Source: Lampris incognitus
Taxonomy: Eukaryota; Chordata; Actinopteri; Lampriformes; Lampridae
DNA: 64,000 bases
Assembly: GCF_029633865.1 (NCBI RefSeq)
Contig: NC_079223.1
Location: 2,327,556-2,391,555 of the forward strand
Direction of reading: 5' to 3'
Shown: piece after piece, positions 362 through 54,144 of the stretch
Numbering within the stretch: position 1 is the first letter of the stretch
Layout of the letters: each line of letters begins with the position of its first letter
Program-made: the position numbers and the translations under genes
The notes under the pieces: generated by a model
Told to the model about the DNA's origin: nothing
Seen by the model: only the letters and a program-made list of their open reading frames with translations
Databases searched by the model: none

Positions 362-36643
<36,282 letters not shown>

Positions 36644-39176: not shown

Positions 39177-39180
39177 TAAG

Positions 39181-39845
39181 TATCGTCATAACTTTCTCAT
39201 GGTGGTCCGTCTGGTTTGATACAACAGTGCATGTGCCGTTGTCTGCCGGAAGGAGGGTGACGTTATCGTCCTACCGAGTCGTGCGAGCTTCTCTCTCGTC
39301 TCTGCTCATGTTGGACGGCAGCACCTTGGCATTGCTGAGGCAGGCGGAAACTTTCGTCCACAGTTGCGCCGCTTCCGGATCCGTGATGTTGTTTTTTCGG
39401 ATCGCTGATTCGATTCCGTGGCTGTGATCAGTCCCACTAGCGGGATGTGCCTCGGCGTGACAGCAAAACTCACCCCCTTAGCAACTCTTTCTCTGCCTGG
39501 GTGAGTTGTCTGTCAGACAGATTCTTCACCCACTTGTCCACATCGGCGGCGTGTGTCCGGCGTCCGTCTCTGTGTGCCATCGAGGGCGCCGTCCGTTGTT
39601 TGCTGGTGTCTCTGGCGTGCAGCAAGTAGGTCGAACTTCCTTTGCTGCCTGGTTTTCGACTTTCCGTATTGAGCTAGACAAGCCTTCTCCGTGAACCCAG
39701 TCACACGTTGGGAAATAGTCTCATCTAGACGCGACATGAGTCTCTGCTGGATCTGCTCCTCTGGCTTTCAAAGCGTTGACATTAAAATTAGTTTGTCTCA
39801 CCCGTTCGTTCCACAGCCGGCTCTGTGCCTTCTGGAGCAGTGGTC
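39181..39845 (-). mobile_element. PLE copy E, 5' coding fragment
   Basis: Reverse complement of 18130-18790 of copy A: GAGACTATTTCCCAACGTGTG, GCAGCAAAGGAAGTTCGACC and GGTGAAGAATCTGTCTGACAGACAACTC all match after complementing. It encodes the PLE N-terminal region (ETISQRVTGFTEKACLAQYGKS). Confidence 0.8.
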
Positions 39846-39954
39846 TCAACCCTGCTCCCAGTGTTGCCAACTCTCGCGAGACAAATAAGCAGCTGCAGCT
39901 TCAAAAATAAGCTCAATACCGCTGTAGCCTGTCGTGGCCTTAACAACATATTGT

Positions 39955-40290
39955 AGCAAATTCGGGGGGCAGTCCGGGAGCGCCACAGCCGGGACGCGAA
40001 CCCGTGGCTCCCACACCGCAAGCGTCAACGTTAACCAGTCGACTAAAGGGTCCGACCCATTAGTCAAGGACCAACGTGTCTACGTATCCATGCACGTTAC
40101 ACTACCCCCTCCTTCCTTCGGGAAGCGCGTCCCCGCGCTTCAGCATATCCGCTCCCTCACGCTTCCGATGACCTCACGATCCCACCATCCCACTTCTGAC
40201 ACCGATGTAGCGAATTCGGGGGGCAACCACAGGAGCTGCCGCGGCCGGGACGCGAACCCGTATCGCCCGCACCCCCCCGAATTAGCCACA
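39955..40290. repeat. unclassified repeat with internal direct repeats
   Basis: TGTAGCAAATTCGGGGGGCA ... CCGGGACGCGAACCCGT at 39954-40003 is repeated at 40206-40261. This arrangement suggests LTR-retrotransposon remnants but no coding region is present. Confidence 0.5.
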
Positions 40291-40740
40291 GCATTGTAAG
40301 GTGCATGGACAAGTGAAACTCGGTAGAAAGCGAAAACGCGGAGCCTTGGATATGAACAAGCCAGTGTGTGTATTGTACAGAATATTCTCGGCGTTATGGA
40401 AATACGATCTCGGACTCTCGGCTGCCTCAGTCAGTGGTGCGGTTTCCATAAAACGTCGAGCGAATTCTCAGCGAACTGTTGAAAATTCGCAAAAAGAAAA
40501 TGCGACTTAGGCGCGTTGATGCTCGTTTCGTTGATGGTTTGTAGCGTTTCGTTGGCTACGCACTGCGTAGTTCCGTCAGAAGATGGCGCTGTACGTTACG
40601 CGTGGCTATGACAGGAAGCAGACTAACTAAACGAGCCTTGGTCGTGAGAAAAACGGAGAGAGGTCGAAGTTAATTCAAATTTTGCCGTTTCCATAAGCTT
40701 TTTAATGCGATACGTCCTAAATGCGCATTAACCCCTGTAC
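40291..40740. other. intergenic, no recognised gene
   Basis: Unclassified. GGTTTCCATAAAACG (40440-) and CCGTTTCCATAAGC (40685-) look like parts of a DNA transposon. Confidence 0.3.
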
Positions 40741-40899
40741 GGGAACACAGCCATTGGCGGGGGCGAGGTGAGCGTTGGAGGAGTTTTACTATTTGGCCCC
40801 CGGTGACGGGGAGGGGGTAGGTCATCTGGGGTTTGTAGGAGGGCCAGGTGCACTACACTCGTGTGTGCGTCACGTCGAGCGTTCACAGAGCCAAGCCTC

Positions 40900-40978
40900 G
40901 ATCGATGCTGCGCGCAGGCGGCGCCGTAGGCTCGAGGCTGCGCGCAGGCGGCGCCGTAGGCTCGAGGCTGCGTCGCTC
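40900..40978 (+). repeat. GC-rich 30-bp tandem duplication
   Basis: GCTGCGCGCAGGCGGCGCCG TAGGCTCGAG occurs twice in tandem followed by GCTGCGTCG, inside a CpG-rich stretch (40730-41060). No gene is attached to it. Confidence 0.8.
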
Positions 40979-41271
40979 GGCGGAGGTTCGCACCGGAAGC
41001 CATGCTGGGAGCAGATCGTGTCAGTCGATGCCGCTGGTGAGAATACACTGAACATTAAAACAAAGCCGCTTCTTGCTTTTACAATCAAGCAGCCATAGTT
41101 TTAAAAACAAGCCCCCCCCGCCCCCCCCCCGGAAAAAAGACAACGCAACCCGCGACTCATGACTTTCTCCAGCGAGTTAGAAAAAGAAGCCCAGAGTCGC
41201 GTATTATGAGCGGACTTGGCAACTCCGGCTGCTCCGGAAGAGCTGCCGTCCTGCCGGTTTCTCTCCCGGGT

Positions 41272-41919
41272 GCGATATTATGAACCCTACATAGCCCTCG
41301 CCAAAATCCCGTACCCTGTCCCAAATCTCGCGAACGGACGCCGGATTTCCGCTGCGTTGCTAAGGAAACAATCAACTATCAACTCGGTGCGAAGCAAAGC
41401 TAACGTTAGCTACCTTCAATTTTGTAATTTTGTATTTTTCGCAATTTTGGACAGCTGGCTGCTTTTGTAATTTTGGACTGCTGGCTGTCAACAACAGAAC
41501 GGAGGTAAGTAACGTTAGTTTGATTTAAGTGTTTGCCCTGAAAACGAAATTAAGCAGGAAGTCTAGATTATTTTTGGTTTTGATTAAAAATAATCAAAAT
41601 ATTAAGTTACATAACTTATGAATCGTCTAAAAAGTGAACCATGGGGTTGAAATTATGATTGTGAGGGAAAGAATAGCCTTAAGTTGACTAACCTAACAAT
41701 TTTAGGTTACAAGGTCTGCCTCTGCTCCTTGGATACGTTATTGGTATTATATTAATGTTGATTGTGGATAACTTAGACAGGTTAAATTGTGGGTGTACAG
41801 CGTTTCCTTGATGAGCGCTAACCCCATAACAACATATTTTCGCGTTGCTACGGTGGCGCACACGTGACAAAGCCAGAAACGGGATTTTGGCGAGGCCTAT
41901 GTAGGGTTCATAATATCGC
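41272..41919. mobile_element. 648-bp DNA transposon, 41-bp TIRs, 9-bp TSD
   Basis: Left TIR 41272-41312 starts GCGATATTATGAACCCTACA; right TIR 41879-41919 is its complement with one mismatch. Flanks CTCCCGGGT at 41263-41271 and 41920-41928 are identical. It has no transposase. The inside is GC-rich on the left with CTAACGTTAGCTA and an imperfect direct repeat around AATTTTGGACAGCTGGCTG. A 9-bp duplication fits MULE or Merlin elements. Confidence 0.88.
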
Positions 41920-42210
41920 CTCCCGGGTAGCCTAGCGCTCTAGTCCGCTGCTACCATCACGGGATCGCGGGGTCGAATCCCCGTGTTACGTCCGGCTGGT
42001 CGGGCGTCCCGACAGACAGTTGGCCGTGTCTGCGTGTGGGAAGTCGGATGTGGATATTTGTCCTGGGCGCTGCACTAGCGCCTCCTCTGGTCGGTCTGTC
42101 GGGGCGCCCCCAAGATCGGCAGAGAGGGGGGGGTGGGGGGGGCAGCGCCTGGGACGGCTCAAAAAGAGCGGGGTGATTGGCCAGATACAACTGGGGAGAA
42201 AAAACAAACT
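41920..42210 (+). repeat. SINE family A, short form, with tRNA-like head
   Basis: Head CCCGGGTAGCCTAGCGCTCTAG, B box GGGTCGAATCCCC (41972-), body GCTGCACTAGCGCCTCCTCTGG, then directly to GATCGGCAGAGAGG, so the long-form middle is absent, as at 25988. Its first nine bases are duplicated by the element to its left. Confidence 0.88.
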
Positions 42211-43088
42211 ACTTCTTCTTCTTCTACTTGGTGTTTAGTGGCGGTTGGCAAACAACGAATTGGTGCGTTGTCGCCACCAACTGATATGGAGTGTGGATCA
42301 GAATGTCTAAGTTAAACTATTACCCCCCCCCCCACAAAATAAAACAAAACTCAAATCTGCACAGTTAAATTAGTTACTCTAAGATACTGAAAGGAGATTG
42401 TATAACACCCAGTTGAGTTCTTCTGTAGAATATCTATTAAACCAAATTGTACTTTTATTTTTCGGAGATTTTGAGTCATACACCTTTCTGCCTCATATTT
42501 CTGACAATATGTTATAACATGCTCTATTGGCTCTTCTTGCCCATAGTAGTCACATCTGCCTGTAAAAATATTATACACCCTCCTCTATTGCCCTCCCCTC
42601 TATCTCTGAGAAAACTATCATATCCTTTAATAGCAAAGTCTAAATCTGGTTTAAGCCAGATTTGCTAAACGCATGATTTCTGCTTTTGCTTTGTAAGATC
42701 TTGAATGAATCCTTTAAACTCTTGGCCATTCTCTTAACAAACTTCTTGCATTTCATTGCAGAATAATCAGACTGTCCTATCACCTGGCCCTCCCGGCTTT
42801 CCATCTGCTTCAAGTCTTTTATTAATATGCTCCCAGGAGACATCTTTTTTCCCAAAAACTTCTCAGCTCCCTTCACTATTATTTTAATTTTCTCCGTTTT
42901 GTGTTTGACTTGATCGGAACAGCTGATGACATAGGCAATGAACAGAATCAGTTTATCCCCCGTCAGTGCTGTGTTAGTTTTCTCTGTTTGACCGACTTCT
43001 GAGCTCGAAGGTTGGTTAACTTCATCCCTTTCATCCCTTCTCCTTTGTCTTTGTACCCTCTTCACTGCTTCTGCAAAGCTTATGTTGT

Positions 43089-43424
43089 TCACTTGCCCAA
43101 TTTCCACAACCCCCTTTCTGACTTCACAGCCACCACGTTGTCCCTGTGTTGTCCACCACAATTACAACACTTTTCCTGCACATTGTCTTGACAATCTTCA
43201 ACTCTGTGCTCACCTCCACATTTGGGACACCTCTGCCTTCCTTTGCAAACTGCTGCTATATGCCCGTATCTCTGGCATTTGGAACAATGAAGTGGAGGAG
43301 GGATATAGGGCCTAACTGGAAAGCTCATACATCTGATTTGAACTTTTTCTGGAAGTACGGACTCCTGAAACTCCAGAAGCACAGACAAGCTATCAACTCT
43401 TTCACCATTAACTGTTTTCAGCAA
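43089..43424 (-). pseudogene. LINE ORF1 zinc-knuckle domain
   Basis: CSKCQRYGHIAAVC, CPKCGGEHRVEDC and CCNCGGQH are two CCHC knuckles and a damaged third, typical of ORF1 in I-group LINEs. Confidence 0.8.
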
Positions 43425-43488
43425 TCCCTTTATTCTGTTCTGGTTTACAAGATGGCTTCCAGTGCAAACCTTGATTATATGGTTTATA

Positions 43489-43912
43489 TAGTTGTTATAT
43501 GGTTTGGAGACAGTGGTGCTGATGAAAAGACAGGAGGTGGAGCTGGAGGTGGCAGAGGTGAAGATAAGATTTTCACTGGGAGTGATGAAGAAGGACAGGA
43601 TTAGGAACGAGTATATTAGAGGGACAGCTCAGGTTGGACGGTTTGGAGACAAAGCAAGAGAGACAAGACTGAGATGGTGTGGACATGTGAGGAGGAGAGA
43701 TGCTGGGTATACTGGGAGAAGGATGCTGAATATGGAGCTGCCAGGGAAGAGGAGAAGAGGAAGGCCAAAGAGGAGGTTTATGGAGGTGGTGAGGGAGGAC
43801 ATGCAGGTGGCTGGTGTGACAGAGGAAGATGGAGAGGACAGGAAGAGATGGAGACGGATGATCCGCTGTGGCGCCCCCTAATGGGAGCAGCCGAAAGTAG
43901 TAGTAGTAGTCT
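43489..43912 (+). mobile_element. RTE-like LINE 3' end, inserted in the I-like LINE
   Basis: Starts at LYGLETVVLMKRQEVELEV, includes DRIRNEYIRGTAQVG, and ends RCGAP with tail GGAGCAGCCGAAAGTAGTAGTAGTAG. One open frame 43492-43881 (129 residues). Confidence 0.88.
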
Positions 43913-44244
43913 TCATTCTGCTTACCTCGCCCCCGCCAATACTCTGAGTCTTTCCAAGTCTTTATCCACAGGAATACCTGTTACGACTCCCCGTGTCACT
44001 CTATTTTCACTGAGAATCCTTCTTTCACTTATCGTTTTCTTGCAAATACATTCAGTATGCAAGGCTTTGTTTTTCTGTTCTTCTGTTTTATGCGTTATTA
44101 ACAAGTTTCCATCTCTCAAAATCTTAGCCATTTCCACCTCTCCTAACTTCTTTTTTAATTCCCTAGACAATGCTACCAGACTAAAGTTGACATGCATAGC
44201 ATCCTTTCTGAATTTAAGGATTATTTTAAAATCCTCCTTCACAA

Positions 44245-45097
44245 CCTTTTGACAGAGACGAGATTCAGCACCTCACATCATGGTGTACTACCAACAGTCT
44301 TGTTCTTAATGTGCAGAAGACAAAGGAGCTGATTGTGGACTTCAGGAGGTCTAGAAGCTGCAGCCACTCCCCCATACACATCAATGGGGTGGAAGTGGAG
44401 CGTGTTTCCAGCTTTAAATTCCTTGGAGTCCACATCAGCGAGGACCTTTCGTGGACATTAAACACCCAGGCCCTTGTGAAAAAGGTCCAACAACGCCTGC
44501 ATTTCCTGAGGAGGCTGAGGAGCGCCCGTCTACCACCCAAAATTCTCACCAACTTCTACCACTGCACCATAGAGAGCATCCTGACCTGCTGCATCTCAGT
44601 GTGGTACGGCAACTGAACCTCAGTAGACCAGAAAGCTCTGCAGTGGGTCGTCAAGGCGGCCCAGCATATCACCGGTACCCAGCTCCCAGCCATAAAAGAC
44701 ATTTATCACAAACGCTGCCTTCGAAGGGGTCTGAGCATCAGCAGAGATCCCACCCACCCCAACCATGGACTGTTCTCCCCCTGTGCTCTGGGAGGCGCTA
44801 CAGGAGCCTCAGAGCCCCCACTACCAGGCTCAAAAACAGCTTCTTTCCACAAGCTGTTGCCCACCTGAACCTGGCTACTCACTGAATGTCTGTAGATATT
44901 TTTAAATATTTTGTACTCCAGCTCTTTTTTAACTTATTTTTAGCTTTTGGTCTTCATGTGTGTATATCTTGTACTGTGTTTGCTGTGTTTATCTGTGTCT
45001 GTCTTGCAATGTTTGGTGAAGCCACAGCCCTCATTTCATTTTTAACATGTGCTGCACATTGTCTTTAATGACAATAAAATTGAATTGAATTGAATTT
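44245..45097 (+). mobile_element. L2-type LINE 3' end, inserted in the I-like LINE
   Basis: NVQKTKELIVDFRRSRS (44305-), FKFLGVHISEDLSW, CCISVWYGN then a stop and frameshift, RTTRLKNSFFPQAV, 3'UTR, and tail CAATAAAATTGAATTGAATTGAATT at 45072-45097. 5'-truncated. Confidence 0.88.
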
Positions 45098-45369
45098 TGC
45101 CGGACAACTCTCCTGTCTTCATCTGAACTGCTCTCTTCCAAGCTTCTTTTACTATTCAGACTTAGATCTCGCCTGTATCCCCCATGTCCTCGTCCTCTCC
45201 TACTAGAAACTTGAGACCAGCCATCAAATTCCATATCAACATCCTCTTCATCTACCTAAGTCGCCATCCTATTCCAGTCACAAACCAGTTTATGCCAACC
45301 GCCAAGTCCAAAGTCCAGGAAATCGTTGTCAAAAGCCAAAAAACTACCACGCCCTCACAATCCGTCTGA

Positions 45370-45503
45370 CCAAAGAACCACCTGATTCAATTAATCAAGG
45401 TCTTGTTAAGTAGGTAATCAGTAGAGTCAGGTGTGTTAAATTAGGGTTGGAGTGAAAACCGGCAGGATGGTAGCTCTCCAGGAGCAGGGTTGGTGACCAC
45501 TGT
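45370..45503 (-). repeat. fish MITE (probable hAT type)
   Basis: On the minus strand CAGTGGTCACCAACCCTGCTCCTGGAGAGCTACC to CACCTGATTCAATTAATCAAGG, a widespread fish non-autonomous repeat. A short piece of its start also occurs at 39840-39862. Confidence 0.65.
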
Positions 45504-45690
45504 TCTGGAGGATCTTGTTAGCTTGGTGGCCCTTGACTGAAGATTTTGTTTGCAGGCTCTTAGGTGTAATCCCACTCTGTCTGCATCTGAGGTTGAATCT
45601 CAGGTGGTTCGTGTAGTCTGCCATTTTACATGCTCTTTGCTCGTACTCGTACAAGTTTAAGGCAATTCTCGCTGAAATGAGACAACATTT
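45504..45690 (-). mobile_element. PLE 5' fragment
   Basis: CTGGAGGATCTTGTTAGCTTGGTGGCCCTTGACTGAAGATTTTGTTTGCAGGCTCTTA is the complement of 18065-18130 of PLE copy A. Confidence 0.65.
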
Positions 45691-45699
45691 CTTTATCCA

Positions 45700-46383
45700 T
45701 GCTCAATAATCCAGGTAAGAAAATCAAAAAAAGTTGAATCAGTTCATCTGGACACAGAGTTTATTGACAGATACGTTTCATCACTCATCTAAGTGACCTC
45801 TTCAGTCTCAACTGACTGCAGGTATCCCTGTCCCTTACAAACAATACAGTGGCACAATGACCGAAACCAACCATCAGTTTCATATGCACATATGGGGGCG
45901 TACTTGTCGCGGCCTAGCCCTCAAGGCTCCTGCTGCCAGCGATGGCTAGGTATGGGCCCGACGCTCCAGCGCCATCCATTTTCAGGGCTAGGTGATTCGG
46001 CAGGTGAGTTGTTACACAATCCTTAGTGGATTCGGACTTCCATGGTCACCGTCCTGCCATCCCTGAGCTGGGGGGGGGGGCTAAGATTACATGTCACCAT
46101 CTTACAAAGTTGTGATTGCAACTATTTCCCAACCCTCTGTGAATAGTACACACGGCCATAGAAAGTCTAGTAAAAGGTCACACCGATATTTGCATATGAA
46201 ACTGATGGTTGTTTCGGTCGTCACGCAACTGTATTGTGTATAAGGGTGGGGTACCTGCAGTCAGGTGAGACTGAAGAGGTCACTTAGATGATGATGAAAC
46301 GTTTCTGTCAATAAACGTTGTGTCCAGATGACTTGATTCACCTTTATTTGATTTTCTCACCTGGATTATTGAGCAGCATCAAG
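45700..46383 (+). mobile_element. PLE copy C, core replaced by 28S rRNA sequence
   Basis: Left inverted arm 45700-45900 (CTCAATAATCCAGGTAAG, TCATCTAAGTGACCTCTTCAG), then antisense 28S at 45903-46055, then the PLE tail from CCATCCCTGAGC (46057) through GACTGAAGAGGTCACTTAGATGATGATGAAACG to GGATTATTGAGCAGCATCAAG. No RT sequence remains. Confidence 0.85.
45903..46055 (-). pseudogene. 28S rRNA fragment inside PLE copy C
   Basis: On the minus strand it contains CCATGGAAGTCCGAATCCAC, GTGTAACAACTCACCTGCCG, TAGCCCTGAAAATGGATGGC and GCTGGAGCGTCGGGCCCATA, which is vertebrate 28S rRNA with a few substitutions. About 150 bp, antisense to the PLE reading direction. Confidence 0.92.
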
Positions 46384-46389
46384 ACACTT

Positions 46390-46703
46390 AGAAGGACAGG
46401 ATTAGGAACAATTATATTAGAGGGACCGCTCAGGTTGGACGGTTTGGAGACAAAGCAAGAGAGGCAAGATTGAGGTGGTTTGGACATGTGTGGAGGAGAG
46501 ATGCTGGGTATATTGGGAGAAGGATGCTGAATATGGAGCTGCCAGGGAAGAGGAGAAGAGGAAGGCCAAAGAGGAGGTTCAGGATGTGGTGAGAGAGGAC
46601 ATGCAGGTGGTCGGTGTGACAGAGGAAGATGCAGAAGACAGGAAGAGATGGAAACGGATGATCCGCTGTGGCGACCCCTAACGGGAGCAGCCGAAAGTAG
46701 TAG
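46390..46703 (+). mobile_element. RTE-like LINE 3' end
   Basis: AGGACAGGATTAGGAACAATTATATTAGAGGGACCGC to GCGACCCCTAACGGGAGCAGCCGAAAGTAGTAG; same family as 24465-25275. It is followed by ATCAAGACACTT, also present just before it at 46378-46389, which looks like a target duplication. Confidence 0.85.

Positions 46704-47586: not shown

Positions 47587-54144
<6,558 letters not shown>

Follow-up and report, generated by a model that had tools for sequence, protein, structure and literature searches.

Fragments of 28S rRNA at head-to-head joints of Penelope-like elements in the Lampris incognitus genome

Results

Four copies of a Penelope-like element with opposed pLTRs

The window analysed here, a stretch of 64,000 nucleotides of Lampris incognitus contig NC_079223.1 (positions 2,327,556 to 2,391,555, forward strand), contains copies A, B, C and D of a Penelope-like element (PLE), all of which carry opposed pLTRs, one of them inverted and on the 5' side. 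In copy C, a fragment of 28S rRNA is located between the two. The features are as follows:

17766..20551, plus strand: copy A, with inverted pLTR, 5'-truncated broken ORF containing a GIY-YIG region, and 3' pLTR (8-bp duplication TATCTCAT)
28122..31097, minus strand: copy B, layout as in copy A with other inserts, and a tandem array of ~35-bp units inside one pLTR
39177..39837, minus strand: copy C, continuation of the PLE ORF (83% identity to copy A 18123-18787, alignment across the empty hAT site)
39838..45502, no strand assigned: insertion of hAT type that interrupts the PLE ORF and contains further nested elements (8-bp duplication, termini)
45503..45689, minus strand: copy C, beginning of the PLE ORF, reading with MADYTNHLRFNLRCRQSGITPKSLQTKSSVKGHQANKILQ and continuous with the pLTR (translation)
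45690..45900, minus strand: copy C, direct (5') pLTR, its 5' end cut where the 28S begins (BLAST)
45902..46056, minus strand (sense on the minus strand): 28S rRNA fragment (Rfam, BLAST identity within the genome)
46057..46384, plus strand: copy C, opposed (inverted) pLTR, starting in the last ORF codons and ending near GGATTATTGAGCAGCATCAAG (alignment)
46391..46703, plus strand: later insertion just outside the opposed pLTR, between two copies of the 13-bp repeat ATCAAGACACTTA
47743..47885, no strand assigned: copy D, two opposed short pLTR tails, directly joined (11-bp duplication AGTTGGACTTA, reached by 1/2000 shuffles)

The family is classified as a putative PLE from its nucleotide layout, a GIY-YIG match below the cut-off and sequence motifs. 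The GIY-YIG domain (PF01541) is matched in copy A fragment 19938-20246 with an E-value of 0.00036 and 21.2 bits, just under the curated 22.6. Seven scanned ORF fragments of copy A gave no match to a reverse transcriptase (RT) domain; words such as RFVDD, seen by eye in the PLE ORF, are presumably RT-like. A pLTR motif (CTGAAGAGG...GATGAAAC) is suggestive of a hammerhead ribozyme by eye only, and the Rfam hammerhead models found no match across 45600-46450, even with E-values as high as 5 allowed.

The duplication around copy A is reached by 23/2000 shuffles, and the exact-word test for a target-site duplication of copy B was not significant (1674/2000). The tandem array of copy B (29949-30792) derives from a single pLTR spot; the pLTR stretch near this spot (~172-213) is also tandemly repeated at loci L094, L103 and L104, so expansion recurs in the PLE family. 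Copy D, a 143-bp fold-back, is positioned just upstream of an apparent last exon on the minus strand (region 47588-47885), apparently in the last intron of a gene that we take to be eEF1A.

The 28S fragment extends the 5' end of copy C

A sequence-only reading of this locus had described the 28S as replacing the core of the element to the right of a left inverted arm. This arm is instead the 5' pLTR of a minus-strand PLE, and the core is still present: the ORF lies to the left of the 28S, is broken by the hAT-type insertion and resumes at 39837. We had also considered copy C as a coreless fold-back like copy D and dropped this, the left pLTR being continuous with the ORF. The insertion, whose assignment to hAT is our assumption from its ends and its 8-bp duplication, has the termini CAGTGGTCACCAACCCTGCTCC and CAGTGGTCTCAACCCTGCTCC and duplicates CTCCAGAA at 45503-45510 and 39830-39837 (an 8-bp word is reached by 13/2000 shuffles). 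On its 5' side, the ORF start (45503-45574) is 87.5% identical to copy A 18059-18130; projected onto copy A, the PLE matches on either side of the insertion (18059-18130, 18123-18787) share exactly 8 bp. The remainder of the ORF and the 3' pLTR were not found within the 64-kb window.

By BLAST, the direct pLTR of copy C is 87% identical to the opposed pLTR over 207 columns, 87% to copy B over 174 and 83% to copy A over 207, while the opposed pLTR is 84% identical to copy B and 80% to copy A; these matched-column values were used in place of MAFFT pair differences (24% between the pLTRs of copy C), which include flanking and unrelated ends. The 13-bp repeat around the later insertion outside the opposed pLTR is reached by 0/2000 shuffles, and this insertion has three matches of ~315 columns elsewhere in the window.

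The 28S identity proposed earlier is borne out by the Rfam model LSU_rRNA_eukarya, whose scored match on the minus strand covers 45965-46064 with 79.2 bits (gathering score, 50; E = 7e-17); homology to 28S extends beyond the scored span to ~45902, giving a fragment at 45902-46056. Over 147 bases, the fragment is 91% identical to sequence at seven sites elsewhere in the genome, all on other contigs, and these copies may themselves be pseudogenes. Within the conserved part, 82 of 90 aligned columns carry the Rfam consensus base (8/90 differ), and on this comparison the window 28S is therefore taken to be a decayed copy. Divergence of the copy C pLTRs from the majority of arms is 13-14%, so that by sequence the ages of the 28S and of these pLTRs would agree only loosely. 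It is the single 28S copy in the window, the remaining matches being 11-27 bases long with E >=1. An exact-pattern search for a 28S reference outside the Lampris genome returned none in viral_contigs or genome_contigs.

Both borders with the PLE are abrupt (~45901/45902 and ~46056/46057), as had been noted for the one with the tail, and each has ~1 nt of possible shared sequence by eye. The only repeat flanking the 28S is a 6-nt G-rich word, reached by 454/2000 shuffles; without a duplication, a separate later insertion is not indicated.

Read along the minus strand, copy C consists of the opposed pLTR (46384-46057), the 28S in sense (46056-45902), the direct pLTR (45900-45690) and the ORF start (45689-45503). 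The 28S sense and the PLE ORF are thus both on the minus strand, and the 28S is antisense to the opposed pLTR alone. The earlier description of the 28S as inverted relative to the PLE therefore holds for the opposed right pLTR and fails for the ORF-bearing element. The 28S shares the sense of the PLE that it prolongs at the 5' end, as template switching would give, but this counts for little, because the orientation is forced by the opposed-arm layout: with opposed arms, any insert is sense to one and antisense to the other.

Head-to-head joints are the usual layout of the family

A genome query spanning the window's left junction listed 41 matches, 35 of which (by row count) are non-window matches in the pLTR part; none of the 41 other than the window's own spans the junction. 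Among 24 pLTR-matched loci examined, 16 have PLE pieces joined head to head, no more than 30 nt apart; this is thus the usual layout of this PLE family. Orientation is consequently neutral on the mechanism, and the inversion or twin-priming-like event that had been thought to be implied is not needed. LSU sequence was found at 0/24 of these loci, and an Rfam scan of 20 of them returned one UnaL2 match and nothing else. UnaL2 LINE 3' elements were noted on the minus strand at 14897-14950 and at 694-747 of L053.

PLE tails are common in the genome, as the tail query gave 1,113 candidates at first look, 40 of which were scored. A second control sample of 16 tails from the top of the scored list (431 bases each) contained 28S in 0/16, so that 28S was present at the PLE joint in 0/40 control loci overall. 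In this second sample, opposed arms are joined within 12 nt in 7/16 as read from the table (L095, L097, L099, L100, L101, L102, L106), L098 and L107 being ambiguous. Inner arm ends of the chimeras were also set against those of the first control sample, but this comparison was discarded, since the query that picked this sample requires a long arm; inner arm ends resembling those of the chimeras are seen in control loci L100 and L101.

PLE/28S chimeras occur at 13 distinct loci

In order to find further 28S fragments we searched the genome (1.48 Gb, 537 contigs) with the window 28S segment and a neighbouring 28S stretch from L029. Both queries lie within one part of 28S and ~40 candidates were scored per query, so the chimera counts are lower bounds, and the choice of queries may account for the apparent preference for a single 28S region. 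Twenty-two rDNA-like loci or longer relatives (L002-L017, L019, L021-L023, L026, L092; several represent the same place twice) were left out; none of them has a PLE match. L009 and its near copies (L002-L008, L010, L012), which are 99% alike, do not have the stretch adjoining the homologue of the window segment that most printed dispersed copies have, and may not be functional 28S.

PLE sequence abuts 28S at 14 of the 40 dispersed loci including the window, corresponding to 13 distinct loci. Eight of these are two-sided, with the order pLTR(-)/28S/pLTR(+): the window, L018, L020, L029, L038, L079, L086 and L088. The near-identical chimeras L086 and L091 are located 0.17 Mb apart on one contig and are probably a local duplication, and L091 is treated as a duplicate. 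At L035, L040, L089, L037 and L030, PLE is found on one side of the 28S. The gaps between PLE and 28S matches in BLAST range from 0 to ~20 nt, apart from L018 (left, 28), L088 (right, ~42) and L091 (left, ~31); by eye, part of the gap in L018 and L088 reads as 28S. L033 and L087, where PLE is nearby and not abutting, were not counted. The PLE-28S chimera first noticed in the window, where 28S abuts PLE on both sides, is accordingly one of a series. The other 26 dispersed loci have no abutting PLE, which implies that 28S fragments also enter the genome by routes other than PLE.

Junctions differ and duplications enclose whole units

The sequence-only reading had proposed a search for copies with the same junctions. 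The letters of the 28S/pLTR junction differ among the 11 loci printed (PLE on the 28S 3' side), which speaks for mainly separate events rather than one propagating copy. Even in the closest pair, L020 and L079, whose 28S 3' ends fall within 4 nt and whose pLTR breaks fall within 1-2 nt of each other, the junction letters are different, and a common origin is unlikely. The inner ends of the opposed arms lie within 3 nt of each other in pLTR position at L018 (252/255), L020 (214/212), L038 (236/236) and L079 (215/213). By eye, the outer ends comprise one long (GCATCAAGACA or a variant) and one short (CTTCTTTGAT or a variant) at L018, L020, L038, L079, L086 and L088; at L029 both are long.

A significant duplication encloses the pLTR-28S-pLTR unit at five of the seven two-sided loci that could be assessed, the duplicate L091 being left out along with the window copy, which has lost its other outer end. 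The unit is enclosed by 14 bp with no mismatch at L079, by 10 bp at L086 and by 13 identical bases outside both pLTRs at L088 (each 0/200 shuffles); at L088 the outer border was set after reading the sequence, an earlier border having given no duplication. L038 has a 14-bp duplication with 1 mismatch (0/200 shuffles; 10-bp exact word 2/1000), and L020 one of 13 bp with 2 mismatches (4/200 shuffles; exact-word test not significant). No significant duplication was found outside the pLTRs of L018 and L029. Since the duplications surround the whole unit, pLTR, 28S and pLTR went in as a single insertion in at least five cases.

28S fragments share preferred ends with and without PLE

To assess the 28S boundaries quantitatively, we compared BLAST ends, which are good to a few nt, at 34 of the 40 dispersed loci, leaving out the duplicates L025 and L091 and the broken or short matches L039, L041, L042 and L043; for L031 the 3' end was taken from a separate piece, and the end taken for L018 understates its 28S. 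Within 12 nt, a 3' end (GGTAACGCAAGCGAT) is common to 12/34 loci and a 5' end (AATCAACTAGCCC) to 10/34, and neither clustering was reached by any of 2000 uniform draws. Neither of the common positions coincides with a query end. On the side in question, PLE is present at 5 and absent at 7 of the loci sharing the 3' end, and present at 4 and absent at 6 of those sharing the 5' end. Because the common ends are found both with and without PLE, they stem from the source of the 28S rather than from the PLE, and discrete 28S fragments would be the simplest source. Common end points without PLE on that side were seen at L028, L030-L036, L076, L080, L083 and L084. The window 28S has a 3' end unlike the common one and a 5' end near that of a smaller group (L018, L020, L027, L031).

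Discussion

A proposed two-ended integration with a switch to 28S

We consider it likely that the chimeras arose by two-ended PLE integration with a switch of the RT to a 28S fragment, which would have happened repeatedly and mostly independently in the Lampris genome. Each DNA end of the target would prime copying of PLE RNA, yielding two opposed pLTR-containing cDNAs that would then be joined head to head. For copy C, the cDNA from the minus-strand PLE template would have reached the 5' pLTR, where the RT, out of PLE template, would have taken a fragment of 28S rRNA as its next template, copying ~155 nt of it. The end bearing the 28S would then have been joined to the opposed pLTR cDNA, and the 28S would represent a third template caught at the joint. 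The sequences themselves show the layout, the 28S, the differing junctions and, at other loci, the duplications around whole units; that RNA was copied, that the enzyme of the PLE itself made the switch, and in which order the steps took place, is our inference.

At the level of DNA sequence, RNA template switching looks the same as end joining that traps a piece of 28S DNA or cDNA. The main rival is accordingly filler capture, in which host end joining of two PLE cDNA ends traps a free 28S DNA or cDNA piece, and we regard it as unlikely. It would accommodate the shared sequence of at most ~1 nt at the window junctions (by eye), as well as the 26 of 40 dispersed 28S loci without PLE, which have the same preferred ends and indicate that such pieces exist independently of PLE. 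The clustering of the 28S ends, however, suggests discrete RNA fragments and is a better fit to copying of RNA, although cDNA made from these fragments could be trapped too.

It is very improbable that the PLE formerly resided inside an rRNA gene and that a read-through 28S-PLE transcript served as the template. Such a transcript would be expected to carry 28S in sense directly 5' of a same-sense PLE, as is observed, but the junctions differing at 11 loci would demand many separate rDNA insertions, the window's left junction has no counterpart among the 41 matches listed, and the rDNA-like stretches examined are free of PLE matches. Multiplication of one 28S-PLE copy as a propagating subfamily has even less to recommend it: the 13 distinct loci, the close ends of L020 and L079 and the near copies L086 and L091 would suit it, yet junction letters differ across the 11 printed loci, L020 and L079 among them, the 3' and 5' ends of the 28S vary, and L086/L091 look like a local duplication. 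Least credible of all is an assembly error or the later insertion of a 28S pseudogene into a finished PLE fold-back, for although the genome does hold 28S fragments without PLE neighbours, no duplication surrounds the 28S of the window, and 28S sits at the opposed-pLTR joint in eight distinct loci, five of them with duplications outside the pLTRs.

Within two-ended integration with template switching, a more specific version can be put forward tentatively, namely that the PLE RT jumps end to end, using discrete 28S fragments with preferred ends as acceptors, such that a chimera would preserve the 5' end of the PLE RNA together with both ends of the rRNA fragment. If this were so, the near-equal inner arm ends of L018, L020, L038 and L079 would correspond to 5' ends at which PLE RNA was processed, perhaps by a ribozyme.

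To our knowledge, the mechanism of PLE integration is poorly understood. In a chimera, the foreign third template would pinpoint the stop of each PLE cDNA and the manner of their joining. The recurrence of 28S ends suggests that stable rRNA fragments are present in the germ line.

Relation to known chimeras and PLE systems

The sequence-only reading knew of no described PLE-28S chimera, and our literature searches, which reached few subscription papers, likewise found none published. What appears to be new is 28S as the captured sequence in a PLE; LINE-1/28S chimeras, inverted pLTRs of PLEs and capture of unrelated sequence by PLEs are already known.

Copies of a SINE family would have junctions in common, whereas the junctions of the Lampris chimeras differ at 11 loci; the term SINE28 is reportedly used in another paper (PMC3576234). 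As in Lampris, dispersed 28S-derived sequence is also represented by the 28S-derived SINEs that the text of one report mentions (PMC13174262). The same report catalogues LINE-1/28S chimeras (n = 18), in which 28S is in sense in 83%, and attributes this bias to RNA ligation or template switching (PMC13174262). As described there, these chimeras resemble those of Lampris in having the 28S fragment at the 5' side of the element, mostly in sense, and with recurrent 28S breaks (PMC13174262). The likeness does not concern the region of 28S, the two numberings being unmapped to each other, and the Lampris carrier differs in being a PLE with opposed pLTRs that holds the 28S between two PLE cDNAs.

Closer in architecture are the PLEs of Adineta vaga, for which inverted pLTRs and unrelated sequence captured between pLTRs are described (PMC3846280). 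There, as here, an inverted pLTR completes the Penelope insert, duplications measure 8-10 bp and one arm carries a short tail extension (PMC3846280). The captures in A. vaga are of gene or non-coding sequence, and the main text of that report makes no mention of rRNA (PMC3846280), while in Lampris 28S rRNA was captured repeatedly.

On the biochemical side, the purified Poseidon PLE protein of Anolis carolinensis cleaves and extends both target strands in vitro, an activity that can yield two opposed cDNAs as proposed for the Lampris PLE (PMC11167929). The layout described for Poseidon is tandem and the main text of that report does not mention rRNA (PMC11167929), whereas the Lampris joints are head to head. 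Alongside this strand extension in vitro and the known inverted pLTRs, the Lampris chimeras support a two-ended PLE reaction in vivo, and they suggest that a class of retroelements besides LINEs places rRNA pseudogenes in genomes.
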